The notes under the pieces: model-generated | The model's input: only the letters and a program-made list of their open reading frames with translations | Told to the model about the DNA's origin: nothing | The model's database searches: none | Translations under genes and position numbers: made by a program | Part shown: one piece after another, positions 453-19,100 of the stretch | How the letters are laid out: every line of letters starts with the position of its first letter | Numbering within the stretch: position 1 is the first letter of the stretch | Assembly: GCA_000310025.1 (NCBI GenBank) | Contig: FN649727.1 | Location: 7,921,075 to 7,942,240 of the forward strand | Direction: 5' to 3' | Length of the DNA: 21,166 nucleotides | Source: Ectocarpus siliculosus | Taxonomy: Eukaryota; Sar; Phaeophyceae; Ectocarpales; Ectocarpaceae

Positions 453-2289
453 AACACTGGGTGAGGAGCATTTGCGGGGACCCTTACCATCCGCTCGACC
501 CAGATACACCTATCAACAGATACCAAAAATGGTGTCGATAAAATCAAGTTGGGAGCTGGCGGCATCAAACACTCAAGAGCAAAACTTGTAAAAACACATT
601 TCCCTGGGTGGTCGCCTCGTGCAAAACCCCCACCTACCGCCGTGTTCCATTCCAAGGGGCTCCTCCCTCGACTCCGTCGTCCTTGCTCTACCCGAGCCCG
701 TTCACGACACAGCCAGCCGTCTGTTCTTTCGGAGAGGCACTCTTCCACCGCAAGGAGAACAGCAACAATCAAGGAGGGGAAAACAATCTCGGATGGTAAC
801 CTACACATACATCAAGCTCGCGTCCCCGATTCACACAGCAGGACCCTTGTGGCGGCGAGAAGCGAGGGCAAAAAGAGGGCAGCAGAAAACAAACAAAAAA
901 ACGGGAGGCAACGGGGGAACACAAACCAGACGTAGTCTTAGCCCTCCTCCCGGCTCCCTGTCCTCCAAGAAAACTACACCTATACTGCCATGAAAGTTTA
1001 GGTAAGGGTGCATCATCACCGCAAACAAATCACATCAATCTTGCCTACACTGATGTCCCTCTCTTTCTCAACGCGAACACTTGGTCTATTCGTTTTCCGT
1101 GGTCACGGCTTCCTACTTCCCACGGGCAGTAACTGACCCCCACCGTCTCACTCCCCTGACCCCAAAAGCCCGGCAAGAAAAAACGGCACCCAGGACCTGC
1201 CTACCTTTCGGAATAAACTCAACATCTGCATTCCCGTTCTTGACTTTTTTATAAACGGAATGTTTCTACGCGCAAAACCTATATTATCCCCAAGTCCCTA
1301 GCCCCTTTCTCCCCCAGCTCTTGAGAAAGAGTTAACGAGCTGTTGCAGTCAAGCCGGTGGGTGTACTTGTCATTGTTCTTTTAGCACCGCTGTAACAGTC
1401 AGTACAATCGACTGCCATGACTTTCCCATCAACCCGGCGGAAGCTTTCAACACATGAACCAGCTGCGCTGTCTCGCCCAACCCATCAAAACAGGACAACC
1501 AGTGAACGGACACCGCCGCGCCACTAAACGTGCAACTGTCGTTCCGCCGACCGTCAACACACACACACAACCGTGGCCGGCGCAAAAGGATGCAGGCGCG
1601 CAACCGCTAGCCTTAAAGGCGTATCGCTAGCCTTAGGAACAGGACAACTCGCCGGTGTTCTTCCGATGGCACAGAAACCAAGCACGACCTCGCTGAAAAA
1701 AACAGGAACGGGACGTGTACCGACATACCAATAGATTTGAACCCCCCCCTCTCCATTTTCACATCCGCGTCCCCCCCTCCCTCTCCCGAGCATGAAGAAC
1801 CATGAGCATGGGCCATGCATCTGCCATTCCCGTCAGGTTATCCTAGACCAACCGACCAAAGCGTGAATTACGCCACAAAAATCCAGGCGTGTCGGCCGAA
1901 CCGGCAATCATCGCGCCGCCGATGCGCGATTGCTTTTCTGTTCGATTCGCCTCTTCGCTAGAAGCAAAAGCCACAATCATGAAGCAATGACAAGAAAAAA
2001 AGAAAGAAAAAAAAAACGACCGAAAAGCTCCTTTCAAATTGCGCTCTCCCCCTCGCGCCCGAAAGAAGCTACTTCTTCTTGCCAAGAAAAAAACAGACTC
2101 TGGAAAAGGCCCAACCAGTGTTTTATTACGTTCTTGGCAGCTCAATGGCGACACTATTACACTTGTCCGCCCGACCAAGGGCGCTTCCTCAAGAGCGAGA
2201 TATCCGACAGTCGACGTACTTCCACATCTACCTCTTGTTTCTGGTAGGTATGGATGACCCGTCGCGCCTGTTGGATGTTCGTTGGCACA

Positions 2290-2472
2290 TCACTTGTTGC
2301 CTCGGGGAGGGGGTTGTTCGTTCCCTTGGTGGCTGCTGTCCGTGAAACCGGGGTGCAGGTCGACGGCCACTATGTCCTTCAGGTGTTTGCCAGCAAAGGA
2401 GAAGGCGTTCTTCCACTTGCGGGCGGGGGCGGGGGCCTCGGCTTCGACCTTGGCCTTGGCCTTGCTTTGGAT
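2290..2472 (-). CDS. Last exon: C-terminal segment and stop
   Basis: Acceptor atctgcaacag|ATC (phase 0) lies just downstream of a CT-rich tract. It reads IQSKAKAKVEAEAPAPARKW, then KNAFSFAGKHLKDIVAVDLH, and ends RGNK with TGA at 2292-2290. A Lys/Ala-rich spacer is followed by a compact, ordered-looking ~25-residue stretch. Phase fits the previous exon exactly. Function unknown. Confidence 0.72.
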   Translation of the reverse strand: MQSKAKAKVEAEAPAPARKWKNAFSFAGKHLKDIVAVDLHPGFTDSSHQGNEQPPPRGNK

Positions 2473-4435
2473 CTGTTGCAGATGGCGACACAAATGAGAG
2501 GGAGAGAGACGGACAGAGAGAGAGAGAGAGAGAAGAGAGAAAGAGAAGGAGAGACAGACAGAGAGTGAGAGATAGACAGAGGAGGACAGAGACGCCATAA
2601 AGCGAAGCCGTCCCTGTTGTATGATGGAAGCCGATGAGGCTTCGATTCACTAACCGTCCATCAGAACATGGACGAGGTACACGTGCACCCCACACAACCG
2701 ACAGACACACCCTTACGAAGGGGAATGGGCAAGCGGCCAGCCTTACGTCCCGACAGCAGCAGTCGATGAAAAAAAGAAAAATCCCGCATAACATCCAAAA
2801 CGAACCGCAACTACTACTGTGTACCAGGCGTTACCAAGGCCAACTCTCAAAACTCGCAACCCCTGCCTTCGCACTCACCCCGTCCTCTCCTCGGTACGGT
2901 GCGGTGGGAGTATGGTACGGGGCAGCTGCCCCAGGGTACTGGTGCTGGTGGGCGTTCATCCACTGCCCTCCTCCGTCGCCGCTGTTTCCCGGGGCCCTCC
3001 CATCGCCGCCGCCGACCCACTCCTCCCCGCCGCCGTACGCCGCGCCGGACACCGGCCCCTCGACCGCGCTCGTCGCTCTGCCCAGCCTCGACGGAGTGTC
3101 GCTCCTCGAGCCCGACGAACCGCCGCGCAGCATCACCTTAAACCTGTCGCCGCCGCCGCCGCCGCCGCCGCCACGGGGAGCTCCGCCCCCGTTCGACGAG
3201 ATCGGAGTTTGCGGGTTCGACCCCGGGTTGGAGTGGCTTAAACCCGCCGCCGCTCCCGGGTAACCGGGCGGGATCTGCTGTTGGTTGGGGTTCGTGGGAG
3301 CAGGGGGGCACGCCGCCCTGGCCGACATGAGGGTGCGCGCGCGGGCGATCGTGCGCGACTCGCAGAGGGCCCGGTCCATCTCCGCCTGGGTCGGCGGCGG
3401 GGAGGCCTTGCGGAAATTCCGGAAGGGGTGGGTGTCTGCGACTCGGGAGAGGTGGGGGCGGGGGGGAGCAACGCAGCAGCACTCGGTTGTTGAGTCGTTT
3501 GACCTCCAACCACGTCTACATTGGGGGACGGAGGGGTGTTCCTAAACCCTATCCCAAACAGGACCACTGCCAAAAGTGGCTTCCCACGATTGAAATATAT
3601 ATCCTTACAATACATGCATACTTGTACTCCCAAGCACAAGCGTGTTTCTTGATTCGCCTATTGCAAAAGGGGGGGCATTTACAGAGGGGATGGATGCCCA
3701 ATGCTGTTATACACAAAATTCCTTGCTCGAATCATGCCATACGCCTCTCTCGCTCCCTGTGGGTATTGGGTACACCTCACACCACTAGTGACCGAATGCT
3801 CAAATGTCTGTGCGCGCGTTTACAGCAGTACGTTTACAGGGCAGATCAACGACCCGATCACTACTGCCTACCGGAGAGCTCCCTCCAGTCGACCATGAAG
3901 ATCTTGAGGTGGTTCAGCTTCTGGAGAGATCTCGGCAAGTTCCCTGCAAATGCATGTTCGCGAATTTGGGTCAGTTTCACGAGGCCCTCCAACCAACATG
4001 AGTTCCGAGAGCTTGGGGTCAGTTTCACAAGGCCCCCCAATCAAACGTGCCCTTACGCCACAACGCAAAAAACATGGTGCAGCAAACGAACTCGAATAGA
4101 TCACTCCACCACCGCCAGGACCCCAAAATCAAACCACGAGTCTTCGGAAAGCTCTCGACGAGACGGTTCAAACGCCGTCATCTTCGGCGCCGTGGCTGTT
4201 TAATGCTCAAGACTTCAGACAATCGGTCCAGGGGAGGTGGAATCTCACGCGAGCTACATTGATGCGGTAGAGTCGGTCGCTCACCGGTAAAGCCGTTGCA
4301 CTGGAGGTACAACCTCTCGAGGGATACCGCTCGCGACAGGCCGCCAGGGATCGCCCCTAAAACAAATCAAACAAGTCAAACACAGAGAAAGAAGTGTGAG
4401 AGATAAGGAGAGGGAGAGGGAGAGGGAGGGAGAGG

Positions 4436-4493
<58 letters not shown>

Positions 4494-7400
4494 GGTTGCA
4501 TACACACAAGATGAGACAAAACAAAACACACGCATACACGTATTGTACGACTGGCGCACAGATGTCTTGTCGTTTGGTCAGCCGAGGCCGATGCTAGATA
4601 CACTCATCGCCGCAGCATAAAGCATGGTGTATCAGAATAACCACAAGGAACACGTAAAATGCGGAGAACAAAAATCTAATCCAGAAAAATGTAAAAAAAC
4701 AGAAAACACAAACGACATAGTTGGAACCCGCAACGGTGTAGAATTTCGTAGTGTCTGACCATGACCAAGTTCAGCACAGCCACATGTCTAATGCCGCAGC
4801 CTACGTAAGCATGCCACACCCAAACGACGTGGATCCAGGCGGTACACATGCTTCTTTCTGGCTCACCTGTGAGATCGTTCATGGACAGGTCCAGCTCCGC
4901 AAGCCTTCCAAGGTCTCCGAACTCATGCGGAACGGGTCCTTCCAGCTTGTTGTCGGACAGAACCAGGGTCTTCAGGCGGCTGAGGCACCCCAGCTCGCGG
5001 GGTAGCTGACCTGCTCCCCAAGCCATCGGGGGCGATGATTGGCCGTCGAAGTCGTACGTCAAGGGATGGGAGCGTTAACAGCAGAGGTTGCTTTGAGACG
5101 GCTTGTCATATCGCACGTGCAGGCCGAACAACAGCACGTCGGGGACACGCGGTCGGGAACGGGAGGTGCCCAGACATGACCTAAAAAAACACGAGTACCC
5201 CCCCCCTGCCCGCCCCCAAACACCGAGTCACGGCCCCCCCTTCCCTCTCTCTTCTTACCCTGAAGGTTGTTCGACCGGAGGTGCAGCGACGTAACGCGCC
5301 CCCCCTCGCCACAGACCACTCCGTACCACTTCGATAGGTTGGGGTCGTTAGTCTCCCAGCCGGTTTGCTCGTACCACCCTGGCCCCTGGGTAGCGGTATA
5401 GAGAGCCCTTAGGGCCTTTCGCTCTTTTTTGTAGTTCGTTGTATTTTAGTTAATCAACGACAACGACAATGGCACACAGCGGGATGGAAAGAGAAGGCGA
5501 CGTCAACGACAAAAAATGTATTTCGTCAACGATACATACGTCGGCGGGCGGAGCAGGTGGAAACGGCACACAGCAGGATGGAAAGAAAGAGAAAAGGCGA
5601 CGAAAACGACGAAACATCATCGCGGTCGGCGGCGGATACGGGACAGGGCACGAGACGCGAGGTTTTCAATGTCCGGACAACGACACCACACGTAGAGAGA
5701 GGTGCCAAACGTATTTCGGTCAGGCTTCACGAACACCCTTTGCGTAAAGACTATGGCAAGAATAACAACTGCCACAGGGGCCCCGCACCGCTGGAATCTA
5801 GGCAGGCTTGCAGGCAGGCAGGCAGGCAGGCACACGTAGAGGCGCCGTCAACGAGACCGCCCGGCCCGGCACCGCCACCCATTCGTCCAACAACACACAC
5901 GCCAAACACTTGTATATACAAACGGAATGTCCTGCGAGCAGCTGCCTTCTCCCGGTGCGCATGACTCCTCTTCTATACGCACGCAGACATCCTCTTTGGC
6001 ACATAATAATAAATGCTCACTTCTCATCAACTCCAATAAACACCAATGTCAGACTCCTCCCCCCTTAGGTTGGATCCATCTGAAATACTCGCTATATATA
6101 AACACCACACACCACCGCTGCCATGTTGCAGCACTATACGAATAACCCCTCCCCCGCCACGTCGCGTTGTTTCAACACTTGGTAAAAAGACCCACCACAC
6201 GCTGTCCCGTTAAAATTGCTCCGAGAAACCCGGACGCAGAGTCAAGTTTCAAAACAATATTAAAACCCCGTTTCTTTCCCGTTTGCGTGTATGACATGGG
6301 GCAGGTGAAAAAAATTGAAAGAAAAAACTGCATTTCTCGAACTCCACAGCAAGCACCGTAACCGCATACCTTCGGAACCCTCGCCTTCTCCGGCGTTGGG
6401 GAACATTGTGGCATGAACGACCCCGCTGGAACGTCGAGAGACCGGCTGCTGCTGCTGCTGCACCCTCTGCTGCTGCCTCGCCATCGCACCTCCGCTCCCT
6501 CCTCGGCCGCCGCCATCGCCTCCCTTCTGCATCTTGAGAGCGCGAAGCTCTTGCTCAAGGTCGTGAATCCGGCGCTCCTGTTCCGTCATCGAGACTCGCG
6601 GGATTCTCCCCGGGGTGTTTTGCTCAATGGGCGTGGACGGTGCCGCTTCGCCCGCGGTCTGTTGGCATTGTGGGTTTTTGGGCGTAAGGCGCGTACTCTT
6701 GTCAGATATTGTAGGGGGGCGGTGTGTTTGGCGCGAATAAAATTGTCCACACGGGAAAAACGTGCGTGTATGTTCCTTGGCAGTAGCATCGACGGGGCTG
6801 AGGAGGCTGACCGAACGAGAACATGTCAACTGCAGCGCGATAAACAAACACGAAAGCGGTCTATCGTAAAAGCCGTCGTGCTCCCCCGCCTGTGTTATTC
6901 TTGTGTGTGTGTGTGGGAATATTCGCCCACCGTGTGTTGGGTGCGTGTGCGTTATTGCGACGACCTTGGCGATACGAATCACGTTCCCATTTTGGGTGCA
7001 AGTACACGCCGAGGATTTGCGAAAGAGCCGGCCAGAGCAGCAGCACAAGCGTTCAACAACCACCACCAAACGGGCCTACGCACACAGCCGGGGCCAGCGA
7101 GTTAGCCGAGAGCGGCCCGCCGTCCAACCTGCCAACGATAAAACGAAGAGCAAGACACCTGCGGAAACCGACCTTCGCGCACGGCCGGTGCCAGTGACAC
7201 AGGCGAGAGCCGCCCACAGCCGCAACTTGCCAACGATACATGTAGGAACATCCTTGCGAACTAACAGCAAGAACGAACGACACAACATACTTCCAACTGA
7301 GGAGAAGAACGGTAACAAAGAACAAGACCTACATACGTTACATGACAATGCGTAAGCACAAGGAGGATAAGAACGGTAGCAAAACAAGACCTACATACGT

Positions 7401-8640
7401 TACATGACAATGCGTAAGCACAACACACCTGAGTGTGAGGCTGAGGGCGAGGGTCACCCCCGAGGGCGTTGAGGATGTGCCCGAGCTCCGTCACGATGCC
7501 GTTCAAGCTCGTTGGGCGAGCCTGCAAAAACAAGCGCCGTGGACGATCAGGCGGGAATGCAAGGACAAGTCCAGACACTCAGTTCGAACTGGTCTCTTGC
7601 TAGCCCTGTCCTATCGTGGACTCTCCCATCCTCAGATAGAAGAAAATCTAGGTAGTTTTCGTGCAAACAAAAACCAGCTCGTTTTCGCGCAAAAGCAAAA
7701 CTGGCTTGTTTCCCTCAAGCACAAACAAAACAAGCGAAAACTCAGACTTCCATGATGTCTTTGATTGATGATGGCAGATTTCCGATGAGAACCGAATTTC
7801 AAACCGAAACAACACCACAAATGGGACATGTTCAACACTGCTGCTGGATGCATGTTCTCAGACTTGTCGATACTTGGCCCGCAGCGAAGTGTAGTAAACG
7901 TAGGTACTGCTGTTGGACAATGCGATGACACGAAGAGTCACAGCCAACGAATCAATGAACTAATGAACGAATGAAAGTGGAGAAGCAAGAGGCAAATATT
8001 TCAAACCGTCGTATTTGATGGGTTTGATAGGTTTCAGAATTGGTTCGCCAGGCTTTGTCAGCGCACGCGTCCTCGGGGTTTTGAGCCAGTTTTCGCAACT
8101 TTGGCCGTCAACCACACGCCCCACGGAGGCCTACCGAGCTCCGGACACGGGCATTGATGTACCGACGAGCCTCCTGCGTGCCCCTGAGAAGGAACCGCGA
8201 GAAAAGACTCGCTGCCGCGAGAGACAGAAACGCCCAAGCATGAAAAGTGACCAAATCTTATACTATGTACAACATATATGACAAAAAAAAAAAGCACGGC
8301 ATTTGACTCAAAAACATCACACGCACCGCTGGGTCTTGCGTCCAGCACACGTCAACGAGCTTGGTTAGCCCCGGGGGGAACTGCGCCTCCTCGTTCTCAA
8401 GGTATCCCGGTCGGTGTCCCTTTGCGACGACGGCCGTGATGACCTTGGCAACGTTCTTTCCGGCGAAAGGCACCCGCTGCGTCAGCACCTCGTGGACTAG
8501 GATTCCGAAGCTGTCGTCCATCGATCGATGCAGCAAGTGCGTATGTATGCGCGTGGTTCGAGCAAATCGTTATGGGGTTGCGTGGGCCCCCCGAGAAAAT
8601 GGGCCGTTCGGGGTAAATGAAAACATCACCAATAGGCGAC

Positions 8641-8706
<66 letters not shown>

Positions 8707-11700
8707 TACACCAACACCACCATCTATGCAGTAGGGGGCCCTGTACAAGGCCGGTCGCCCGATATAAGGCCGGGAAAATCCCGCGGCACTACAATATGCG
8801 GCCTTTCATATCCGACACCCTACTGTCCCTTGGCTTGCATGCGTAATACGCCATGCTTTCCTGTGACCAACACACACTACTATACTACAGTGATACACCA
8901 CCGCCCCCAACACACGCGCGTACAGCACCCGTCTGGCTTCTACAGACGTGCCAACGAACCCTGCAAATACCGTCGACTCGTGCTCTCACCTGTACACGTC
9001 GGACAGCACGGACGGGTTCTGGTCATCCAATACTTCGGGGGCCGTCCAAGCTGCCGACCCCACCGTGTCTCCCCCTCCAAGAGACTGCGACTCCCTCAGC
9101 GCGATCATCCCGAAGTCGCTCACTCTGTGTGTTGCCGAGGAGGAGGGAGAGTGGATTGTTACGGAAATTTTTGGGGAAGGGGGGCACCGGGGAATAGGAA
9201 ACTTGAAAAACAACTTGGGGGGGGGGGGGGGGGGATACATGATACATGGCTCGGATACATGTTCTTGGTGTTGCTCACTTGAGGCGGTTGTTCTCGAACA
9301 CGAGAACGTTGGTACTCTTGAGGTTGCCGTGCACCATCCGCTTCACGTGTAGGAAGTGCAGCCCGCGCGCGACGTCGTAGAGCATGGCCGCCTTCTCCGG
9401 CGACGGCAGGGTCAGGGGAATGCTAAGGTCCGGCCTGTGCAGGAGGTCGAAGAGGTTGGTTGCCGCCTGCTCCTGGACGATGCAGACGTTGGGCCGTACG
9501 GTGCAGCCCCCCAGGGTTCTCACCACGAAGTCGTACTGCAAAAAAAAAAATCACGGGCGACGCGAAGAAAAGCTTTTCTAGGTCACGCAACACAATTGTT
9601 GTTGTTGTTGTTGTTGTTGTCTTCACATTAAAAACCGTTCCGATCTCTCTCTACCCAGTACCTTCGTATGTCCGTACTGATCCAACACTCGACGCGGTCG
9701 ATTCCCGTGGTCACAGGTTAACTTACCCTAAAAAGGTACACTCAAATAAACTGGCCCCGAGGGGTCCGCAAGTCAATAGAAATCAACGACAGATATTTTG
9801 GAATCCTCCACTCCCTCTTCGCGCTATGCGAGGTATCAACTGAGACTAGGAGTCACTATCTATCATGGGCCGGAGAGAAAGAGGTACACCCCCTTGGTTC
9901 AATCTTGGTACTTCACAACGCAAGCAGAGACAAGGCCATCTGGAACAGAAAAAGAGAGAAAAAACAAAACAAAAAACAACAACAACAACAACAACAATAC
10001 CATGGATTAAATATTCATCGAAAAAAAAAAAAAACGTAATCCAAACAAAAAGCTTGATTAGGTCACGCAACACAATACAAACCCTGGATACCATTAAATA
10101 ATATATAGAAAATAAAAAAAAACGGACGCAGAGAAAAAACAAGTGATGTCACACAACACAACACCAATAATTCATTGCTGATTTGCACTGGACCTCGTTA
10201 GCCGTGAACACATATGAGTCCGTTTCATTCTTGTAAGCAAAAAAAAAAAGAAATATGACGCGTTACCCCACCTGCATGGCGTGGAAATCCTGCACGTCCC
10301 TCCTCAGCCCGTCCAGCAGCTCGGCCCTGATGTTCTGGTTGTTGAGCTTTTTCACCGCCACGGGGGCCCCTTCCAGAGACGCGCCAAGCACGGTGCCGAA
10401 ACCCCCGTTGCCCAGGCTCCTTTCGCCCAAGAACTGCAGCCTGTCAAAGCCTACAGCAGTGAACAAATAGTATGGACGCGCGTGGGCACAAGGGAGGCGG
10501 GGTAATCCATCAGCATCGGCCGCGACAAATGGCTCGTCAAAGAAAGGGAGGCAGACTCGGATGGTGGGGCCACATGAACAGCCCAGTGTCTGCTCTGCTT
10601 TTGCCCCCGCCAGTATAGTGCCCTTCCTGATACCCGCTTGTTGATCGCAATATCTCGGAACTATGTCTCGCACTAGTCATATTGACGCTCGATACAAAAC
10701 CGATCGAAAGTATTCTCGCCACGTCGTCCGAAACCGATCCGATCCTCTCGGTTCGATAGGCAACACCATCGCTCACCGATCTCTGACGCGGCAAACCTCC
10801 CCTCCGACGCCGCCCGCATCGAAACCCTCCGCAGCACCGCCATGATGTCCCTGGCTACCCGCTCGTCCTTCGTCACTCGGAGTTTTTCCTGCGGGAGAAA
10901 ATTATCCGTTTCAAGTTATTTTTTGGGGCCGGGGGGCAGGCAGTTAGTATCAAGAACGCACCAGGTTGCACGTAAGCATACAAATAATACATACACGACA
11001 GACGTCAAGCAACCAGTCAAAGCCGACGGCTTCATTTTCGTGACTTATTTAGTCGTCAAGGTAGCAGAGGTCTCCACCCAAGGCACGGACCACGGATGGC
11101 GGTTGATCCCACACACACACTTCAAGCGGTGTTGCCCCGTGCAAACAGGGCGTACTGTAACAGGACTGCTGCGGTGTCTCGCAAACCTTCGCTTTCGACA
11201 AAGCCGGGTAAGGTCGTCATCATCTCTCTCTCTTTCCTGCGACAGAGCAAGGAGTGTGTACTGGTGTATGGTACGGGTGACGAGCGATGAATTCCGTCCG
11301 CCACAGCAGTCCAGGACCCGACACCCCCTCTTAGTGTTGGCCTTAGGCCGGGGTTCTTCGGGTAATGCTATTTACGATACAAACAGGTTTATTCTTCGTG
11401 GAAGGGTGTACAACCAACCCGGCTCACCAAGGTTCTCAAGAGTAACGCTAGATACCAACAGGTTTATCTTTAGTGTAGGGGGTTACAACCGGGCTCACCC
11501 ACGATATTCCACTTCTCATCCTCGATACAAGGGCAAACGCGAAGGTCTCCTCTACACTGTCAAGTCCTTCCGTGCGGGCGAAATGTTTAGAACCTTCTTT
11601 CGAATCGAAGGCTCGTTTCGGAGGAGATCAACAACCCTGAACCATTGTGTAACTTCTTGACCAGGTCTTGTGGAAGCGGAAACGACAGATGCATCCCTTG

Positions 11701-14700
11701 CCCCCCATAGGGACACGGTGAACTGACCTTGGGGACGTGAGATTGGGAAAACCGCTGTCGGTTGGCTGTTGGCGCGGTCACAAAAGACGAAAGACTGGAT
11801 TTGTTCAGAAATTCCAGTTATTTCCAACAAGCAAGAGAGAGAGAGAGAAGAGAAAGAAAATGTCTTGCTAGCCAATGGACATGGCGAGCGCGTACACACA
11901 CCCAAAGACAGTTCCGTCCTTCTATCACACCTCAAGAGAACCCAGGTTCAAATCATCGAAAAAAGAAAACCATTTGAGTATTTGAATTGGCAGCACACTG
12001 TTCAAGACTCAGTACGTTTGCTTGGGAGTTAGACTGCTGTGTTCAACAGTCGAGAGACGGAGAGAGGGTTTTGGGCCTTGCTGACGCACTACAACTTTAC
12101 GCGATAAATTGGCATTTTTTGCAACAAAGCGTGGGACACCGTATGTGTAGCTGGCCCGTATTTAGACCCAGCACGCGTCCGCTGCTCAGGTAGTGCGCGC
12201 AGTGCGGGCATGGCTAACGTGCGCCGGAACCGTAGTGTGAAAAAAGAGACCACCCCCCCCCCCTCGACCGATTTCGAAGCTCGACGACAAGGCCCACGAC
12301 GAAGAGGACACACAACCAACCAAACGATGCTTCATAGGAGAGATCTCGACAAAACGGTTACAACGCCGCCCTTTTCGGCACCACCGGTCTGTCTGCTGTC
12401 GAGCAACCGAGCCTTGAACATCCTTCCACGGGGTGTGGTATTTCGCGTCATGGCACCAACCCGTTCGCTCCGGCGCGGTGACATTGTCGGAGATTCTGAC
12501 ATCTACCTTGATGTTTGAATGTTTTTCAACGCCACAGAAGGAGTAGTACACAGTAGCAACCACACACGAGACATACACCATACGTCAAGACAACACACCA
12601 GTTGGAAACCGCCGAGGAAAAAACAAACAAAAAAAAGCAGGTCGGTTGTTGTCGCACAGAGCACTCGAGGCTTGTTTCCATCAACACATCACCCAGTCTG
12701 CCTCAAGGCACACAATCGTTCCTGTCTACCGAGGCGACAAAATCAACCAATCACAACTGGACAGCCGATGTGACGGGCGCTCAAAGAACGTTCAACTGTT
12801 CCTCCGCTTGTCCTGCGGATCTTTCCGTGCGGTCCGCGCGCACCCGTATGTCACTGTACACACATGCCCGCGTACCGCATTCTACGGCAACCACCCAGAT
12901 GGTTGTTTGTCGTCTCACGCCCGGAGAGATTCCCCGGTAGCGTGTCAGTGCTGTACCACGTCAGCACGCCAGCACAGACTGTGTCTGTGCCACCGCCTAG
13001 TCAGGTCGGTTCTGCGTCATCAGGGCTGCGGCTAGTGTGCTGTGCACACCCCTCTTCACTCTTCTTATTCCCCTCTCTTCCCAGAGACCACACCGTTGGC
13101 TCTTCCTAGAGAACTACTCCTGTCCCGCAAGTCTGTGCACTAGCGGTTCCCCACCGTCGGTTTGGAAGTCTCCTCTGGTCGCACAGTCGAGAGAAGGTTC
13201 AACTCAACCCCTTCCGTCGGTCTGAGATAGGTCACCCTTACAAAAAGCTCTGTGTACTGTAGGAAGATGCGCCTCAAGAGAGGGCCATGATATCGACCAA
13301 CCTCCACCACTTCGCGCAGAGGAATTTTGGAACTGTTTTCAACTATATTAGGGTGACCCTATAATGTTGTTAGTTGGCCTGTGATCACGGAAGGCGTTCG
13401 AGCTAGTTGGAACCAACTGCGGATTGAAAAAGGTAGTTAACGATGGAAGATTTTCTTCCTTTGATATTTGATACAAATATAACACACCGAATCCATCATA
13501 TCCGCAGCAAACGTTCTTTTTTTTTTCTTTTTACGAAGAACGCCACAAATCCATCTCTTCCACACAAACAACAGTTTTGAAAGTGAAGACAACGGCAACA
13601 ACAACAACAACAACAACTTTTTCAACCACGCACCGAGATGTTGTCAGGCCGTATACAACTTTTCGCGGCGATTTCCATGGGGCAAGTTGTCTTCGGACAA
13701 ACTCTCTTGAGCAGTTTCGTTCTTCTTGCAACGATTAGTTGCCAGGTAGACTGCAACTCAAAAACATCTTGTTCGCTCGTTCGAGGTTTCGGACAACCTT
13801 GAGAATCTCCGGATTTGTGGTCCGATGATTGATGTTGGCGACAAGTGCTTCTTGAACCAAAACCCTTGCTCGTAGTCGCCCAAAACGCGGCAACTTTCGT
13901 ATCCTAGACAGACCCTTTTCTATCGATAGAGATAGATTTGTAGTACTTCATAATATTAAGGGAAAATATACATATATATGTTCAAAATCCCATTGTATTG
14001 TCTATGCAATTGAAGTTTTGTCCCGAGACAAGATATGTTTTTTCTATAAAAAAACGCAACAAATCCATACCTTCCTCACATGGTCCCTTGACTAGATTGG
14101 CAATAAATTAGCAATGAACTTCATAGTGTGGTACGAGGACCACTTTGTGTTTCTACACGTTTTAAGCTAAGCGGGTCCTTGTAAGATGTAGAAGCAGATG
14201 CTGTCAACGTTTTCATGCCCAACGATCTCTTCCCTCTCTTCACCTGGCCTGCGTTAGCCCCCAGGGTCACACAGAATACCAATGTTTTATCATAGTCAGG
14301 CGATCCAGGTTCCTTACAAAAAAAAAGCAGTTAATTTAAAGGGAACGTAGAGCGACCGAAAAAGCTGTTTAATACCGTTTCGGGTCGGTAGATCGACAGG
14401 TTGAGCTGTGCCCAATCTAAAACCTCTGCTACACGTTGTAGGCGTGTAGATGAACGCCCGGTGAACCGGCTCGATATCTGAACCAGCTTGATCCACGTTG
14501 AATCCGTTTGTTGGTTGGGGATGCACACGTCAAGAACGGCGGAGACGCCTCAAAGTATCCAGAAGATCCGACAGTTGGGTCAAACTTCGGGCTGCTGCAT
14601 GCATGTACATATTGGTACAACAGTTCACAACAACACCTCTACAATTGTTTCTGGTAGTCTGCTACTGCTGCTATCAAGGCATGCGACGCCGTTCACACAC

Positions 14701-17006
14701 CACATCGGTTGTTTTCTGACGTGCTGTAGCTGTCGGCAGCTGAAGCGCACTTGACTGTGCTTGTTGACACCTCTACGGGACAATTGTGCATAAATCGCAA
14801 ACTTCAAGCACACCTCCATCTCGCGCTACAAGGCCTAAACTGACATGCGGCACATTATTAGTCGACGGGGCTGTGGAAGCTGGGATGCATACATATGATT
14901 TCCTCCAAGGAAGTGTAGAGGTTTGTGTCTCCTATGGCAAAGCGAGAGTGAGGAGAGTATAGCAGTCCGCGGGGGAACCGCCCGGGATTCTTTATTGTAG
15001 CAGTTTGACTTGTGAGATAAACAGATGGGAGCAAAAACACACAATCACGGAGCCCCGAGGGACGGAGCGGGGCCTGGCGTCGACTTCAACCTCGACAAAC
15101 CAAGACGGCATCGACATACCAAAGGTGCTGTTACCCTCGCTCTTGTGTGCATGTTACATACATACCTGCCTACAGCTACAAACACACACCGGCGATGTTG
15201 CCACATACTGCTACCGCACCCCCCACGAAACACTACGTACACAACAACCCATATAAGGACTTCGGCCGCCGACCTACTAACAACGCTGCCCTGCCAGCCG
15301 CGCAGCATACCTCGAGAATAATCTGCAGGTCGGAGTAATCCTGGAGGCGATCCGCGTGATCTTCCTCCTGAGACTGCTCCTGGAAGCCCGGTGGCGCCTG
15401 GAACAACAAGCAAGATACGGAAATATTTGGTGTCCAAAACGAAAGTGTTGTCGAGGGTACACGCGTGACTGAACAGGATGGCACGCAGGCGGCGGGATAA
15501 GAAACCATGCGGACCACATGGCAACAAACGGACGGCGGGGATGGCTGACGAATCAAGCTTGTTGGGATCACCCATGGAGATATGTTCTTGGTTCGATGGG
15601 GCGAAAACCACTACAGCTTGTCGGTGGGGGGAGTGCGCCGCGCCCCGATTCCTCCGACTAGGATACCAAGGCATATCACAGGCACGATTCGAGGTCAATT
15701 GTCTAACGACTACGGCATGCGTTGTTTACATGGGTACACCCCCCCCCCCCGGCTCTTCCGAATCATCGGTGCCCCCATGTACGCACGAACATACCTGCAT
15801 CAAGAAGCCCAAGCGAAACGTTAGCTCTCGGAACATCTCAGAGTCTTCCTTGCGGCTGGCCCCCTTGCTCCACCACTCAGGGTCCAAGAATCTAGTAAAG
15901 ACGCACAACAATATTTGGCGCGGAGACAGCGAGGGGGTCAAACTGTCAGTCCAGATTCGCAGTGCAGTCAGAGCAACACTTGCATCTTTCCAAGTCTGCC
16001 AAGGTGCCCAAGGCAAAAGCAAAAACAAGTTGACGTAGAGAGAGACACACACAGCAAGGCGAGAGCTTCCTAAGCGAGCCTGGAAAGAAAGAGAGAGAGC
16101 GAGCGAGAGAGAGAGAGATAATGCTTTTTCGCAAACGAACTTCCATCCAACGCTGATGAAACGTGGCCGTGCTGATTGCTCCCGTTCGACACGTGACGCA
16201 TCTACCCCAGGGTACAAGAGGCGCGTTTTTGGTGGGCTCATGCAATAGTGCCCACAGGGTGGTCGAGTACACCGAACAACAACGCGGAACCTATGTAGCA
16301 CAGATACCGTGCGCGCAAGTTCTACATTCGTGTTCAAACCCTCTATTACCGCTCTTGCGGTCTACACGGCATCAGCTGGGATTCCTATTTCATGCAACAC
16401 GCGAGCGAGCAATTTAACGAATGAAACGCACAAACGAACATACACATGGCGCGCTCGGAACCAACGCACGCTGGAGCGCTATCGTGAGCAAACAAAAACG
16501 TAATCACGCAATTTTATCCACGAAACCACACGCGGGGCCGCCACAATACCGAACGATGTACAATGTAACAAGTTGCTACCAAAACATCCGAGAGTGGAGG
16601 TGTTCGCCGACAAGACGTTTCTTCGAGTTTTCGGTGGGACGGCCAACCTCTCTCTCCCCGCATCGCGAAAAACAACAAGCGGGCGACGACAAAAAAAAAA
16701 AAAATTGCCGCAAGAGAAAAAATCGCCGCAAATCGCAACGGAAAAAAAACCCAGCAAGCCGCGGTGAGTGTTGGATACCGTACCGCCATACCGTTACCAC
16801 CACCGCCATATACCGTGCCACCACTACCACCACACAACGTGCCGAACTACTTACCTCTCCATGAAGACTTGCGCTTCCGTGACGAGGTCCTTAATGGTCG
16901 CCAGCACGGCGTGATCCGCCGTCTGCCGGCCCCGGTGCACGGCTATCATGGGTTTCTTCAGGGCGGCAAGCCGCGCTCCGAGTCGCTGGCACTGGCACCT
17001 GTTCGC
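2290..17006 (-). CDS. Split gene: MLKL/HeLo-like helical bundle - pseudokinase - coiled coil - LRR protein (16 exons, 5' end missing)
   Basis: Exons on the minus strand: 17006-16855, 15891-15795, 15397-15311, 10888-10777, 10450-10272, 9535-9279, 9124-8990, 8510-8327, 7521-7429, 6658-6370, 5423-5259, 5010-4867, 4356-4285, 3943-3872, 3435-2879, 2472-2290. All introns are GT-AG. Junction phases run 2,0,0,1,0,2,2,0,0,1,1,1,1,1,0 and every pair matches; the sum is 2778 nt, an exact multiple of three ending in TGA. Residues (counted from the first exon listed): helical bundle ~1-149, kinase fold ~151-420, coiled coil and Q/G linker ~433-528, LRR cap and repeats ~529-679, low-complexity tail ~680-925. 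No membrane segment is visible, so the protein is probably intracellular. By analogy with MLKL and NLR proteins, a role in sensing and cell-death or defence signalling is inferred, not shown. The weakest joint is 6370/5423. The initiator exon is missing. The gene could instead be two neighbouring genes (kinase, LRR), but the LRR part has no start codon of its own. Confidence 0.82.
2496..2586. repeat. GA-rich tract in intron (CT on coding strand)
   Basis: Imperfect (GA)n with gaca units. It lies in the last intron; on the coding strand it is a CT tract starting ~24 nt upstream of the acceptor at 2473, so it may serve as or extend the polypyrimidine tract. Confidence 0.9.
2879..3435 (-). CDS. 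Exon: C-terminal low-complexity region
   Basis: Acceptor cccgagtcgcag|AC (phase 1, long C/T tract); donor GGG|gtgagt (phase 0), 185 codons plus 2 nt. It starts THPFRNFRKASPPPTQAEMD, followed by a short charged helix (ALCESRTIARARTLMSAR), then Pro/Gln/Asn- and Gly-rich sequence with a run of eight Gly. Disordered tail is the likely structure. No known domain recognised. High GC with G/C-ending codons supports coding on this strand. Confidence 0.72.
3872..3943 (-). CDS. Exon: single, degenerate LRR (72 nt, phase 1-1)
   Basis: Acceptor catttgcag|GG and donor TCCG|gtaggc. It encodes GNLPRSLQKLNHLKIFMVDW followed by RELS. The first half is a good LRR; the N of the N-x-L position is replaced in the second half, as expected for the final repeat of an array. 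Its acceptor is preceded by two copies of a 48-nt-spaced segment that itself resembles LRR coding sequence. Confidence 0.85.
3952..4042 (-). repeat. Duplicated LRR-like segment in intron
   Basis: Two copies 48 nt apart share ggtcagtttcac(g/a)aggccc (cores 3969-3992 and 4017-4040). On the minus strand both read GLVKLT, the start of an LRR consensus (L-G-x-L-V-K-L-T). No intact repeat with splice borders can be made from them, so they look like decayed LRR coding sequence. Confidence 0.55.
4285..4356 (-). CDS. Exon: single LRR (72 nt, phase 1-1)
   Basis: Acceptor tgttttag|GG and donor ACCG|gtgagc. It encodes one 24-residue repeat, GAIPGGLSRAVSLERLYLQC followed by NGFT. The repeat boundaries coincide with the exon boundaries. 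A long CT tract lies in the intron upstream on the coding strand. Confidence 0.9.
4383..4490. repeat. GA tract with central CG run
   Basis: GGGAGA units, then (CG)n at about 4437-4450, then pure (AG)n at about 4450-4490. It is intronic, 25-135 nt upstream of the LRR exon acceptor at 4357 on the coding strand. The CG run next to (AG)n could favour non-B DNA. Confidence 0.93.
4867..5010 (-). CDS. Exon: two LRRs (144 nt, phase 1-1)
   Basis: Acceptor ggggagcag|GT and donor CACAG|gtgagc. It encodes exactly two 24-residue repeats: GQLPRELGCLSRLKTLVLSDNKLE and a second beginning GPVPHEFGDLGRL, both fitting G-x-(I/L/V)-P-x2-(L/F)-G-x-L-x2-L-x2-L-x-L-x2-N-x-L-(T/E). The length is 2 x 72 nt and symmetric, so the exon can be gained or lost without shifting frame. 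Confidence 0.92.
5259..5423 (-). CDS. Exon: LRR N-terminal cap and first LRR strand
   Basis: It encodes ERKALRALYTATQGPGW, then WETNDPNLSKWYGVVCG, then GRVTSLHLRSNNLQ. This is the cap preceding LRRs in plant-type and brown algal LRR proteins (A-L-x2-L-Y... W ... W-x-G-V). Donor CAGG|gtaaga is phase 1. Acceptor aaaaaag|AG (phase 1) completes a Glu codon and matches the upstream exon, but its pyrimidine tract is poor. An in-frame stop lies just upstream at 5448-5446 with no Met between it and the domain, so this exon cannot start a gene by itself. Confidence 0.85.
5424..6369 (-). other. Intron joining kinase half to LRR half (946 nt)
   Basis: Donor gtatgc at 6369, acceptor aaaaaag at 5424. It contains a CAGG microsatellite (5800-5832) but no further domain-like exon in phase 1-1 that I can recognise. 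Confidence 0.55.
5800..5832. repeat. CAGG microsatellite
   Basis: Imperfect then perfect tandem ggca units inside the 946-nt intron. Confidence 0.9.
6370..6658 (-). CDS. Exon: coiled coil and Gly/Gln-rich linker
   Basis: Acceptor atgccaacag|ACC (phase 0); donor GAAG|gtatgc (phase 1), 96 codons plus 1 nt. After a Pro/Thr-rich start, the segment MTEQERRIHDLEQELRALKM is a clear leucine-heptad coiled coil. It is followed by a Gly-rich run, a Gln-rich run and RRSS. It probably mediates self-association or acts as a flexible tether between the pseudokinase and the LRRs (inference). Confidence 0.85.
7301..7422. repeat. Tandem duplication, two ~60-bp copies
   Basis: Copies at about 7301-7361 and 7363-7422 share acaagacctacatacgttac, then atgacaatgcgtaagcacaa, with only a few differences near the start. 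They are intronic, a few bases from the donor of the exon ending at 7429. Confidence 0.95.
7429..7521 (-). CDS. Exon: end of kinase domain (subdomain XI, helix I)
   Basis: Acceptor tttttgcag|GCT and donor CAG|gtgtgt, both phase 0, 31 codons. It begins ARPTSLNGIVTELGHIL, the standard R-P helix that closes a kinase C-lobe, then runs into a Pro-rich linker. Two near-identical ~60-bp tandem copies lie just inside the following intron, close to the donor. Confidence 0.9.
8327..8510 (-). CDS. Exon: kinase C-lobe helices F to H
   Basis: Acceptor gacgacag|C (phase 2) completes Ser in DVYSFGILVHEVLTQRVPF. The exon runs through FPPGLTKLVDVCWTQDPA to donor GCG|gtgcgt (phase 0). The CW-x2-DP motif marks subdomain XI. 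Using this donor makes the next exon restore the conserved ARPT, so the splice choice is well constrained; reading on into the intron loses the motif. Confidence 0.92.
8644..8702. repeat. (AG)n microsatellite, ~29 units
   Basis: Uninterrupted AG run in the intron upstream of the kinase C-lobe exon; CT on the coding strand, ~130 nt before the acceptor at 8511. Confidence 0.96.
8990..9124 (-). CDS. Exon: kinase activation segment (DFG to APE)
   Basis: Acceptor acacacag|A (phase 2) completes a Lys codon, giving RLKVSDFG. Donor is TACAG|gtgaga (phase 2). The DFG (~298-300), a short activation loop and the TAPEVL motif are present, followed by SVLSDVYS, the conserved helix F start. The exon is 135 nt. 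Mg-binding Asp is retained although the catalytic base is lost upstream. Confidence 0.93.
9217..9234. repeat. Poly-G run (18 nt)
   Basis: Homopolymer in the 154-nt intron; C-tract on the coding strand ~90 nt before the acceptor at 9125. Length may be affected by sequencing error. Confidence 0.9.
9279..9535 (-). CDS. Exon: kinase hinge to catalytic loop, HRD changed to HGN
   Basis: Acceptor is a T-tract followed by gcag|TAC (phase 0); donor CTCAA|gtgagc (phase 2). It covers beta 4-5 and the hinge (TVRPNVCIVQEQA), helix E (DVARGLHFLHVKRMVH) and the catalytic loop HGNLKSTNVLVF (H~278, N~280). The catalytic Asp of HRD is Asn and the Arg is Gly. The K and N of the loop are kept. The same HGN-L-K-S form occurs in many plant receptor-like pseudokinases (established knowledge). 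Confidence 0.93.
9568..9625. repeat. Short direct repeat plus (TTG)n
   Basis: The segment taggtcacgcaacacaat at 9579-9596 recurs at about 10059-10076, each after aaagctt. The first copy runs into (TTG)8 at 9596-9620 followed by tcttcac. A related inverse (CAA)n with gtgaagacaac upstream occurs near 13580-13617. Confidence 0.8.
9974..9998. repeat. (CAA)n microsatellite
   Basis: Tandem aac units inside an A-rich intron stretch, flanked by further A-runs at 10021-10034. Confidence 0.9.
10272..10450 (-). CDS. Exon: kinase N-lobe (Gly loop and VAVK lysine)
   Basis: Acceptor cactgctgtag|GC (phase 1); donor CAG|gtgggg (phase 0). It encodes FDRLQFLGERSLGNGGFGTV, then LGASLEGAPVAVKKL. The glycine-rich loop GNGGFG and the VAVK lysine (~residue 183) are intact. 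The helix C region reads LRRDVQDF where related kinases have RREV, so the usual salt-bridge Glu appears to be Asp (alignment by eye). The exon joins directly to YDFVVRTLGG of the next exon. Confidence 0.93.
10777..10888 (-). CDS. Exon: helical brace before the kinase domain
   Basis: Acceptor ttctcccgcag|GAA (phase 0, good pyrimidine tract); donor ATCG|gtgagc (phase 1). It encodes a charged helix (EKLRVTKDERVARDIMAVLR) and then RRVSMRAASEGRFAASEIG. The last Gly codon is completed by the first two bases of the kinase N-lobe exon. The basic, helical character suits the linker between helical bundle and kinase fold. Confidence 0.85.
11361..11499. repeat. Diverged tandem duplication (~70-80 bp unit)
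   Basis: Unit 1 (11361-11428) and unit 2 (11441-11499) share the order taa(t/c)gcta - gatac(a/c)aacaggttta - gtgta/gttacaac - cggctcacc, with small indels. Confidence 0.8.
13369..13412 (+). repeat. Dispersed 'cacggaaggcg' repeat, copy 1
   Basis: Shares gttggc(c/t)tgtga(t/c)cacggaaggcgt and agttgga with the copy at 17496-17541; a weaker third copy lies at 20071-20110. Confidence 0.65.
13588..13617. repeat. (CAA)n microsatellite
   Basis: About nine units, preceded by gtgaagacaacgg, a flank also seen beside the inverse (TTG)n run at 9596-9620. Confidence 0.9.
15311..15397 (-). CDS. Exon: acidic helix of N-terminal bundle
   Basis: This 87-nt symmetric phase 0-0 exon has acceptor gttgttccag|GCG and donor GAG|gtatgc. 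It encodes 29 residues with an acidic stretch (QSQEEDHADRLQDYSDLQ) ending IILE, consistent with the last helix of the bundle or the brace leading to the kinase domain. The next exon in phase lies 4.4 kb away; an extra symmetric exon hidden in that intron cannot be excluded. Confidence 0.78.
15795..15891 (-). CDS. Exon: middle of N-terminal helical bundle
   Basis: Acceptor ctttactag|A (phase 2) completes an Arg codon with the AG of the previous exon. The exon reads FLDPEWWSKGASRK, then EMFRELTFRLGFLMQ, and ends at donor CAG|gtatgt (phase 0). The segment 'F-x-E-L-x2-R-L' is an amphipathic helix expected in the MLKL/HeLo-like fold, and the junction gives VFMERFLDPEWW without a break. Confidence 0.82.
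15892..16854 (-). other. Intron (963 nt) between helical-bundle exons
   Basis: No exon recognised. It carries a GA-rich patch at 16084-16119 (CT on the coding strand, ~200 nt before the acceptor) and an A13 run at about 16691-16703. Confidence 0.6.
16855..17006 (-). CDS. Exon: first helices of MLKL/HeLo-like N-terminal bundle
   Basis: Acceptor cacaaccag|GCG at 17007, phase 0; donor AG|gtaagt at 16854, phase 2. It encodes about 50 residues beginning ANRCQCQRLGARL. The pattern N-R-x2-C-x2-L-x2-R-hydrophobic is typical of the second helix of MLKL-type and NLR-adaptor four-helix domains. It continues with a second amphipathic helix ending VTEAQVFMER. A preceding helix and the start Met should lie upstream. 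The family assignment rests on motif and helix pattern, not on a search. Confidence 0.8.
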
Positions 17007-17690
17007 CTGGTTGTGGGTGGCAAGCGTCGTTGTTTGGCGTCAAAAGTGTCAGTGTTAGTGTCGCCGTTGTCGTTAATCTTGTTGTTCGTCATCATTGTCG
17101 TTGTTGGGGTGGTTGTGGTGACAGCGTCATTTGTTGGTGTCAAGCGCCAGCGTCAATGTCAATACTGTCGATGTTGTTGTTGTTGCTGTTGTGGTGCCGA
17201 GACTGGGTCGTACATGTACCGCAAAATTGCGAGGGCGAACACACAGGTTCGAGGTCGATCTATTTACCCCACGAGGTCCATAGCGTGATTGACAGACAAC
17301 CCGACCGACTTGTGTGCAAGGAAAGCAAAGACCCCTCTCGACGAATCTGCAACCAAAACCACCCTCTTCGGCATTGGCAGCCTCTTCCTTCCACATGGCC
17401 ATAGAGCAATCGAGCTTTCAAAAACATCGATCGCACACATGTTACTTTCGCTAGCACTTCTGCTGCTGTGCCTCGTTTGGGTACAATGCTGCTGTAGTTG
17501 GCTTGTGACCACGGAAGGCGTCTGCGGCAGTTGGACCAGTACGAACATCAGGAGGTACTGAGCGCAGACCGGGACGGATATACCACAGACCAAGCCTACT
17601 TCCAAAGAGATGGTTCGCGCTTTTGTTGTGGGCTCGTCGCGAGCCTTTTTCGACCTTAGAGATCGGTATTCAGCTGCCTATGTACAGCAG
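17007..17690. other. Immediate 5' region, expected to contain the first exon
   Basis: The exon at 17006 opens with a phase 0 acceptor, so a start exon must lie upstream. One weak candidate on the minus strand ends at 17273 with CTC|gtgggg, phase 0, and reads VFAFLAHKSVGLSVNHAMDL before the splice; it is helix-like but I cannot confirm it or its start. A (GTT)n-rich patch lies at 17171-17190. Confidence 0.3.
17496..17541 (+). repeat. Dispersed 'cacggaaggcg' repeat, copy 2
   Basis: Aligns by eye with 13369-13412 on one side and, through ccacggaa(g/a)gcgtc and gaccagta, with 20071-20110. Confidence 0.65.
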
Positions 17691-17694
17691 TCAC

Positions 17695-18170
17695 AATCAT
17701 GGTCAGAAGAACCGACTTGAAATTAGAGCAGTGTTTTCTCCCAGCAAACGCACACCCCTCAACAGACGAACGAAGAACCACATTTGCATGTTTCCAGCGT
17801 GCCAACAGTATGAGGTGGCGACCGACCGTAGCATCATCATGTCTCAAAATCCGGTGGGAACAGGCACCATATTCTCAGGATTTTGGGCGATTCAACAGAA
17901 CGCTGAATTGGGGATGAGGCAACATGGGACAGCCGCAGTGCACAGCGTCTCTGCATGACAGAATTGAACACAATACCAGAAAACAGTCAGAATCCCGGCT
18001 GGAAACGATTTGAAACTAGAACCGTCAAGTCAAGCCAACGCATACACCCTCGCCACAAGAGAGAAAGCGCTGCACTGCGCGATTCCAGCTTGCAAACAGT
18101 ACAACAATGACCGTACAGTAGCATCATGGTGTCTCAAACTCCGGTGAAAAGAGGCACGTTCTTTTGGCTT
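17695..18170 (+). repeat. Left arm of a large imperfect inverted repeat (two tandem units)
   Basis: Unit 1 (about 17695-17975) and unit 2 (about 17984-18200) share gaaacgaYttgaaaYt, ccagcgtgc/ccagcttgc, and gtagcatcatSRtgtctcaaa followed by tccggtg. The reverse complement of 18640-19100 shows the same elements in the same order, including ggggatgaggc and gcatgaYMgaaYtSaacac between units. Confidence 0.85.
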
Positions 18171-18199
18171 AAAAGCGTGCAACGTGCCGTTGAATCTGG

Positions 18200-18356
18200 A
18201 CAAACAAGCTCTTCTTTCGCGCGATTCATGTGCGCAAAACAGCAGAAGAGCAGTAATCGCAGTAGCATGACGGTGCCTTAAAATCCGGTGAACAGAGGCA
18301 CGATTTTTTGTTTTTTGGGCTTAAACACGTGCAACGCAGCGTTGCATCTGGAGCGC
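18200..18356 (+). repeat. Third unit of the same repeat, in the inverted-repeat spacer
   Basis: It carries gtagcatgacggtgccttaa, aatccggtgaacagaggcacg, gcttaaacacgtgcaacg and gttgcatctgg, matching the end of unit 2 (aggcacgttcttttggctta...gttgaatctgg). Confidence 0.8.
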
Positions 18357-18639
18357 AGTGTTGCATCTGGAGGAGGTAATCATGCCGATGGATTGGTGTC
18401 TAACCCTGCTGTAACGAACGACACAACAAACGATATTGTCTTCTCGAAAACACGGTCGGAGGAAGGCCTCTGTCCCTACAATCCAACAGGTTGCAACGCC
18501 AACAACAGGTGGCGGATATCAGGGCAGCGCTCAATGACGGGGCTCTGGGTTGGGCATTGGAGAGCGGAAGGCGAGAGCAACGCCGTTCGAGCAGCCAAGC
18601 ATCTCTCCGCTCTCGCCCTGTCTCATGGCGCTCCTAAGC

Positions 18640-19100
18640 TCGCAAAAAAGCGCGTCTCTTCTTCATCCGAGTTTGAGACACCATGATGCTACGGCGGTGA
18701 CTGCCTTTCAGCTATACAGTAGGCACGCTGGAAATGGGCGAACGCGCGAGCACTTCTACGCCCATTACGAGGGTGGGTGTGCTGGACGACAACACGGTCC
18801 GAATTTCAAGTCGTTCTTCCGTCCAGGACTCTCGGACTGCATTTTGACGGTGACAGTTGCATGTTATATTTTTGTGTTGAGTTCGGTCATGCGGAGGCGT
18901 TGTGGACTGCTGTTGTCCAATCTCGCCTCATCCCCCATTCAGTGCCTGCTCCCCACCGGATTTCGAGACATCATGATGCTACGGTTGGTCACTACTGACT
19001 GCTGTACGCACGCGGGAAACGCAAAACTGTCCTGTTGTTTCTGGTGGTCCTTTAGAGGGCGTGTGCCTTTGCTGGGAGAATACACCGCAAGGAGAACAAA
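18640..19100 (-). repeat. Right arm of the large imperfect inverted repeat
   Basis: On the minus strand, unit at 19100-18930 contains ttctcccagcaaa, caaccgtagcatcatgatgt and ccggtggg; unit at 18850-18640 contains gaacgacttgaaatt, ccagcgtgcc and gtagcatcatggtgtctcaa. The order is the same as in the left arm. Confidence 0.85.

Follow-up and report, generated by a model that had tools for sequence, protein, structure and literature searches.

Whether a single brown algal gene joins a helical bundle of the kind found in MLKL to a kinase fold and to a block of leucine-rich repeats (LRRs), and what such a protein might do, is the question raised by a locus in the genome of Ectocarpus siliculosus (assembly of 189 Mb in 492 contigs). 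The window, that is, the whole stretch of DNA analyzed here, comprises 21,166 nucleotides (C2:7921075-7942240). On its minus strand, running from 17006 to 2288, 16 exons with GT-AG sites throughout and agreeing phases were rebuilt, in keeping with the exon count of the initial annotation and with tblastn support from orthologous proteins, and these form a single frame of 925 residues closed by a TGA stop codon (Table 1). An extra exon from 8183, between exons 8 and 9, was rejected, as joining exon 8 to exon 9 restores the kinase ARP motif in the form seen in the orthologue P0001. The order of parts in the model is a putative four-helix bundle, a kinase domain, a short coiled coil, an LRR block and a tail. 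Pfam scanning of the model returned a kinase match (2.2e-41), LRR_1 (8.4e-12) and MLKL_N (9.4e-5; 22.4 bits, with a cut-off of 27 bits), and NCBIfam scanning returned kinase and LRR models alone, all far below their cut-offs. The N-R-x2-C-x2-L-x2-R motif pointed out earlier was located in exon 1, and the absence of a membrane helix, sought by hydropathy alone, held in the model and in four orthologues, none of which contains a 19-residue window at or above 1.6. The annotated coiled coil is present, though it is short (22 residues) and assigned by eye.

Table 1. Exons of the gene model and the sequence features that they carry, in window coordinates
Feature	Position	Strand	Content
Exon 1	16855..17006	-	bundle helix 2; NRCQCQRLGAR motif 17003-16971; MLKL_N match from residue 2
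Exon 2	15795..15891	-	further part of bundle (FLDPEWW)
Exon 3	15311..15397	-	bundle end to brace start; EEDxxDR motif 15367-15338
Exon 4	10777..10888	-	brace-like helical segment, bundle to kinase; without tblastn match in P0003
Exon 5	10272..10450	-	kinase N-lobe; GNGGFG 10412-10395; VAVK 10361-10350
Exon 6	9279..9535	-	kinase catalytic loop HGNLKSTN 9331-9308 (HRD to HGN)
Exon 7	8990..9124	-	kinase; SDFG 9120-9109; APEV 9042-9031
Exon 8	8327..8510	-	kinase C-lobe
Exon 9	7429..7521	-	kinase end; ARPTS 7521-7507
Exon 10	6370..6658	-	linker; short coiled-coil-like segment 6589-6524; without tblastn match in P0003
Exon 11	5259..5423	-	LRR N-terminal cap and first repeat; 165 bases including cap; without match in P0121
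Exon 12	4867..5010	-	LRR; 144 bases, two repeats
Exon 13	4285..4356	-	LRR; 72 bases, 2 leading bases finish a codon; without tblastn match in P0003
Exon 14	3872..3943	-	LRR; 72 bases, 2 leading bases finish a codon
Exon 15	2879..3435	-	low-complexity tail; without tblastn match in P0003
Exon 16	2288..2472	-	basic amphipathic segment 2421-2362; DLHPG[FY] 2361-2341; stop 2290-2288

Several features outside the exons deserve mention in their own right. The 4.4-kb intron at 10889-15310 holds at least two repeat families present elsewhere in the genome (at least 44 matches including itself; best 40 of 825 candidates scored), long GA microsatellites occupy intronic positions 4450-4490 and 8646-8702, and the final ~400 bases of the window (20780-21166) contain many long homopolymers and resemble a poor assembly edge.

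Position 17006, originally taken as the start of the gene, proved to be a splice acceptor instead, and P0001 extends 193 residues upstream of what exon 1 reaches by tblastn, a stretch composed of an N-terminal tail and bundle helix 1. This tail, which opens with MLPSARRAEL and FDNSYLSRKAF, is conserved as far as Discosporangium in the full-length alignment. Residues 1-193 of P0001 were not found when compared with the whole assembly, the 30 matches at E ≤10 (best 0.002) falling mostly on a low-complexity stretch, and a location of the N-terminal exons within 17007-21166 or the next 20 kb (6.5 kb of it N) was rejected, as no tblastn match of P0001 in that region improved on E 0.5. A gene that is decaying in this genome and has lost its 5' exons would produce the same failure; we consider this very unlikely, since a 6,467-base run of N, which starts directly after the window (L016:242-6708), matches the position of the missing part, and since all 16 exons are open, with 91% identity between the model and P0001 (939 aligned columns, 24 gap positions). 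The likeliest reading is that the missing 5' exons lie inside the gap.

A homologue search with model residues 1-720 returned 547 proteins at E ≤0.001, out of 7,992 candidates that were scored. Among the best 120 of these, three cover the query nearly in full, namely P0001 from Ectocarpus sp. 13 (95% identity, 100% coverage), P0002 from Pylaiella littoralis (68%, 100%) and P0003 from Discosporangium mesarthrocarpum, a brown alga by NCBI taxonomy (41%, 96%), all values referring to query residues 1-720. When the bundle region of P0001 served as the query, three proteins were found, of which P0121 was new (EukProt; 81% identity over that region), and searching from the Discosporangium bundle returned P0003 alone; the family is thus documented in four protein sources. 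By tblastn, all 16 exons are matched in order by P0001 and by P0002, 15 by P0121 (not exon 11) and 12 by P0003 (not exons 4, 10, 13 and 15), of which exons 9, 12, 14 and 16 reach only E 0.006-0.13. As far as predicted proteins tell, the proposal of one gene rather than two is upheld: in the full-length alignment, bundle, kinase and LRR run co-linearly in P0001, P0002 and P0003, and the same holds for P0121 apart from exon 11.

The possibility that a bundle-kinase gene and an adjacent LRR gene were merged by prediction must be weighed here. All four orthologues are gene predictions and not cDNAs, made by pipelines that are possibly non-independent, and P0121, which has an unrelated FAM194 part joined to its front, illustrates that fusion errors may occur. 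Against such a merger, phases are compatible from the kinase exons through the linker to the LRR exons, and the LRR block follows the kinase in P0001, P0002, P0003 and P0121 alike; we find the artefact barely credible. The Ectocarpus genome contains a FAM194-like gene on the opposite strand, ~28 kb past the gap (L042:5165-9520, L043:149-1633), so that the fusion in P0121 is either a misprediction or a rearrangement in its source species. The locus is a member of a real gene family, present in this genome, in three named brown algae and in the source of P0121.

Conservation is distributed evenly over the three principal parts. Between P0001 and P0002, identity amounts to 76% in the bundle, 76% in the kinase and 73% in the LRR block, with 51% in the N-terminal and 43% in the C-terminal tail; between P0001 and P0003, the corresponding values are 40, 46 and 42%, with 31 and 26% in the tails. 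Because the three parts are nearly equal in identity and the tails lower, bundle, kinase and LRR all look constrained at the level of sequence.

That the bundle is of the MLKL type, as first suggested, is supported by several sequence comparisons. Firstly, the Pfam family MLKL_N scores above its cut-off in two of the four orthologues (P0001, 27.3 bits; P0121, 30.7) and below it in P0002 (23.2) and P0003 (23.9); the window model, deprived of helix 1, reaches the 22.4 bits given above, and the bundle piece of P0001 that includes helix 1 reaches 32.9. Secondly, MLKL_N is matched by six of six bundle pieces, drawn from the four orthologues and from paralogues on contigs C29 and C10 (best 7.4e-10). 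Thirdly, when 177,635 PDB sequences were searched with a profile of the bundle (hmmsearch), 15 reached E ≤10, of which the seven best are all MLKL (3.7e-5 to 8.2e-4; next hit 0.4), in alignments that span helix 1 to the acidic ED-rich segment at the brace. Structure prediction with AlphaFold (four sequences per job) yielded mean pLDDT values of 40.9 for P0001 and 41.5 for P0003. Helices are predicted in the bundle region at block-mean values of 29-66 and 27-53, respectively, too low to confirm the fold; the kinase stays below 50, and the LRR block is highest, at 52-84 and 56-86. The sequence comparisons support homology of the bundle to MLKL_N, and we hold the architecture, with common descent of bundle and MLKL_N, to be highly probable.

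The kinase domain retains the glycine loop, the VAVK lysine, the catalytic-loop Asn, DFG, APE and ARP. The HRD site reads HGN in the window, P0001 and P0002, HGD in P0121 and HRD in P0003, and the αC glutamate, as aligned here, is replaced by Asp in the window, P0001 and P0121 and retained in P0002 and P0003. Given the change from HRD to HGN, the Ectocarpus kinase is probably inactive, and phosphotransfer in Ectocarpus has likely been lost. The available parts of one review describe replacement of the HRD arginine by glycine as frequent among pseudokinases, and give the same site in MLKL as HGK in human and Asn in mouse (PMC4718504). Alternatively, the protein may be an active TKL-like kinase under control of the N-terminal bundle, in which HGN still catalyzes or the change is immaterial. 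The intact VAVK lysine, catalytic-loop Asn, DFG, APE and ARP would accord with such activity, as would wheat Pm13, an MLKL described in the accessible text as having an apparently active kinase and as giving resistance (PMC10951266); the replacement of the catalytic Asp by Asn in the window, P0001 and P0002, and the Asp aligned with the αC glutamate in the window, P0001 and P0121, speak against it and render it improbable. The designation as a pseudokinase accordingly fits the window, P0001 and P0002 and does not extend to the family, in which P0003 has HRD and P0121 HGD. As P0003 keeps HRD and P0121 HGD, an active kinase was probably ancestral, and the loss of catalysis looks derived. In a kinase tree, the window lies closer to P0121 than to P0002, on weakly supported branches (84/72), and for this reason one or two changes of Asp to Asn are both compatible with the tree.

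C-terminal LRRs were also proposed at the outset, and a block of a cap and approximately five plant-like repeats, counted by eye, indeed follows the kinase, with LRR_1 and LRR_8 above their Pfam cut-offs in the model; it is not the end of the protein, as a tail of 246 residues lies behind it. Exons 11 to 14 each open with two bases that finish a codon. The tail is variable except at its end, where the DLHPG[FY] motif is common to P0001, P0002, P0003 and P0121. The basic segment preceding this motif has a charge of +4 and the top hydrophobic moment of the whole protein in the window model (0.60) and in P0001 (0.57). Since the moment is lower in P0003 (0.44) and P0121 (0.28) and is not the top value in P0002 (0.59), little weight is placed on this amphipathic segment.

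The Ectocarpus genome holds further genes with related parts. Searching it with the MLKL_N family gave at least ten matches at E ≤10, with ~10 kb examined around nine of the ten; these ten loci are a lower bound, because the search missed the present gene, the bundle of which is split over exons. Four matches exceed the cut-off (C10, C29, C485 and C21:3137075), and C24 is among the six others. At C10 (L019) and C29 (L018), the bundle is followed by a kinase with HRD and then by TPR stretches, six of six of which, when scanned, match TPR_12, five of them above cut-off. C25 (L053) has an HRD kinase, TPR-like stretches recognized by eye and a weak bundle match (18 bits), with hmmscan returning nothing for the stretch beside that match; at C15, kinase pieces accompany a weak bundle (19.7 bits); and at C11:3050590 a bundle (E 4e-5 to P0001) and the start of a kinase run into N. 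At two neighboring, divergent loci, C21:3137075 (L048, 27.5 bits) and C21:3142917 (L049, 19.0 bits), an MLKL_N-like stretch precedes NB-ARC and TPR, and at C21:2955352 (16.4 bits) such a match stands directly before an NB-ARC match, by position only. C14 (L050:4167-5186) carries an MLKL_N match of 24.2 bits; a hydrophobic tail rich in Gly/Ala comes after it, and the reading frame gave no kinase match. From their order and strand, we infer that the bundle, kinase, NB-ARC and TPR stretches at these loci form single genes.

A query with the Discosporangium kinase found five places at or below 1e-15 (best 136 of 187 candidates scored), corresponding to C10, C29, C25 and two exons of the present gene. 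The kinase tree was built from a chosen sample of 24 rows (22 different) and 191 columns; L004, L005, L020 and L051, each shorter than ~100 residues, were omitted, and two of these four are bundle-kinase loci. In this tree, the bundle kinases of the LRR type and of the TPR type cluster together (97/98), separately from 14 other rows. It is on account of this grouping that joint descent is proposed: bundle and kinase have probably travelled together while the repeats were exchanged. The earlier idea that a pseudokinase stands in place of an NB-ARC switch gains some support from the MLKL_N-like exons that precede NB-ARC-TPR in the same genome; the comparison of bundles lends it no such support, hhalign of kinase-type against NB-ARC-type bundles giving a Prob of 1.6 and an E of 0.031, not significant, from shallow profiles. 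The NB-ARC-type bundles had zero hits in the PDB. A broader scheme, which we put forward as speculation and think rather unlikely, would be a brown algal kit of intracellular receptors in which an MLKL-type bundle serves as common executioner, NB-ARC or kinase fold as interchangeable switches and LRR or TPR as interchangeable readers, with the kinase switch losing catalysis in the Ectocarpus line. Were this true, the path from a signaling kinase to a pure molecular switch could be read in living species.

How might such a protein work? The explanation that we consider best is of an intracellular brown algal protein that follows the layout of an NLR, the switch in its center being a kinase fold. 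At rest, kinase and brace would keep the bundle closed, and the LRR block would hold or read the kinase. The pseudokinase might then change in response to a ligand, to a modified host protein or to phosphorylation by a second kinase (an HRD-keeping bundle-kinase paralogue, for instance) and thereby free the bundle, which would oligomerize and act at membranes, leading to cell death or ion flux. Each of these steps, from autoinhibition and release to membrane action, sensing and killing, is inferred. The role of the kinase as a switch is moderately favored, the entire chain through membrane action stands slightly below even, and membrane-directed killing is a tentative suggestion. MLKL and HeLo domains act via their N-terminal helix (in part also PMC10197012), whereas ~170 residues precede helix 1 in P0001, which counts against this explanation. 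A role as pathogen sensor is countered by the LRR block, which is short and as conserved as the rest of the protein, unlike a fast-evolving sensor.

These same observations would suit a conserved scaffold in developmental or stress signaling, in which the bundle would serve dimerization or membrane location and the (pseudo)kinase and LRR would bind partners, with no killing involved. A scaffold would agree with the single close copy in the genome (a bundle search found the four exons of this gene and three weak matches), with the equal conservation of bundle, kinase and LRR, with the retention of catalytic residues in Discosporangium and with the long tail that P0001 carries ahead of its bundle. 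Nonetheless, the available portions of two sources report those related bundles whose function has been tested (MLKL, plant MLKL, HeLo, CCR) as cell-death domains (PMC10951266, PMC10197012), and we regard the scaffold as a possibility to be taken seriously, if a doubtful one.

The NLR-like reading, with its kinase fold in the middle, bears on the distribution of cell-death machinery. MLKL-type executioners have been described in animals, plants and fungi (PMC10197012, PMC10951266, each as excerpted), and a survey that used human sequences to search 67 unicellular species, in the accessible text of which Ectocarpus is unmentioned, detected no necroptosis regulators (PMC7539657). No MLKL-type protein of brown algae was recognized in the open-licence full-text literature, judged mostly by title and abstract. 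An MLKL-type protein with an LRR block common to several brown algae would extend the executioner machinery to stramenopiles, would point to specific candidates for regulated cell death among brown algal proteins, and would suggest that a kinase fold can occupy the position of NB-ARC in NLRs. Additionally, the orthologue series of HRD, HGD and HGN offers a natural test of how a signaling kinase becomes a switch.

Comparison with known systems places the protein among several of them. NLRs, of the plant CC/RPW8 type as well as the fungal HeLo type, likewise combine a helical death domain, a middle switch and terminal repeats (PMC10197012, in part), whereas the switch of the algal protein is a kinase fold, and neither NB-ARC nor NACHT appeared at E ≤1 when the model and P0001-P0003 were scanned against Pfam. 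LRR receptor kinases also unite LRR and kinase in one protein, but in reversed order, the LRR here following the kinase, and no membrane helix is found here by hydropathy. Brown algal LRR-ROC-COR (ROCO) genes are described, in the available text, as having an LRR module of 72-base exons in fixed phase (PMC11378527), a feature shared by two of the four LRR exons here; in contrast to the ROCO repeats there described, those of the present protein are few and conserved, and Pfam scans of the model and P0001-P0003 gave no ROC-COR. Animal MLKL resembles the algal protein in its N-terminal bundle, homologous by profile, and in the pseudokinase that follows it, with an altered HRD (PMC4718504, in part); it differs in ending with the kinase, without LRR, whereas the algal protein adds a long N-terminal tail and an LRR block, and in its non-canonical DFG (same excerpt), which the algal protein keeps. 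The protein is thus neither MLKL proper, as it continues past the kinase, nor an NLR, as it is without NB-ARC. Similarly, plant MLKLs and wheat Pm13 set a bundle (MLKL_NTD) before a kinase, and the accessible part of that account does not mention C-terminal repeats for them (PMC10951266). Lastly, MLKL-family proteins of Glomeromycotina join MLKL homology and repeats in one protein, the repeats being Sel1 and not LRR (PMC8778642, as excerpted), and these constitute the nearest precedent that we have met for the union of MLKL and repeats seen in Ectocarpus.
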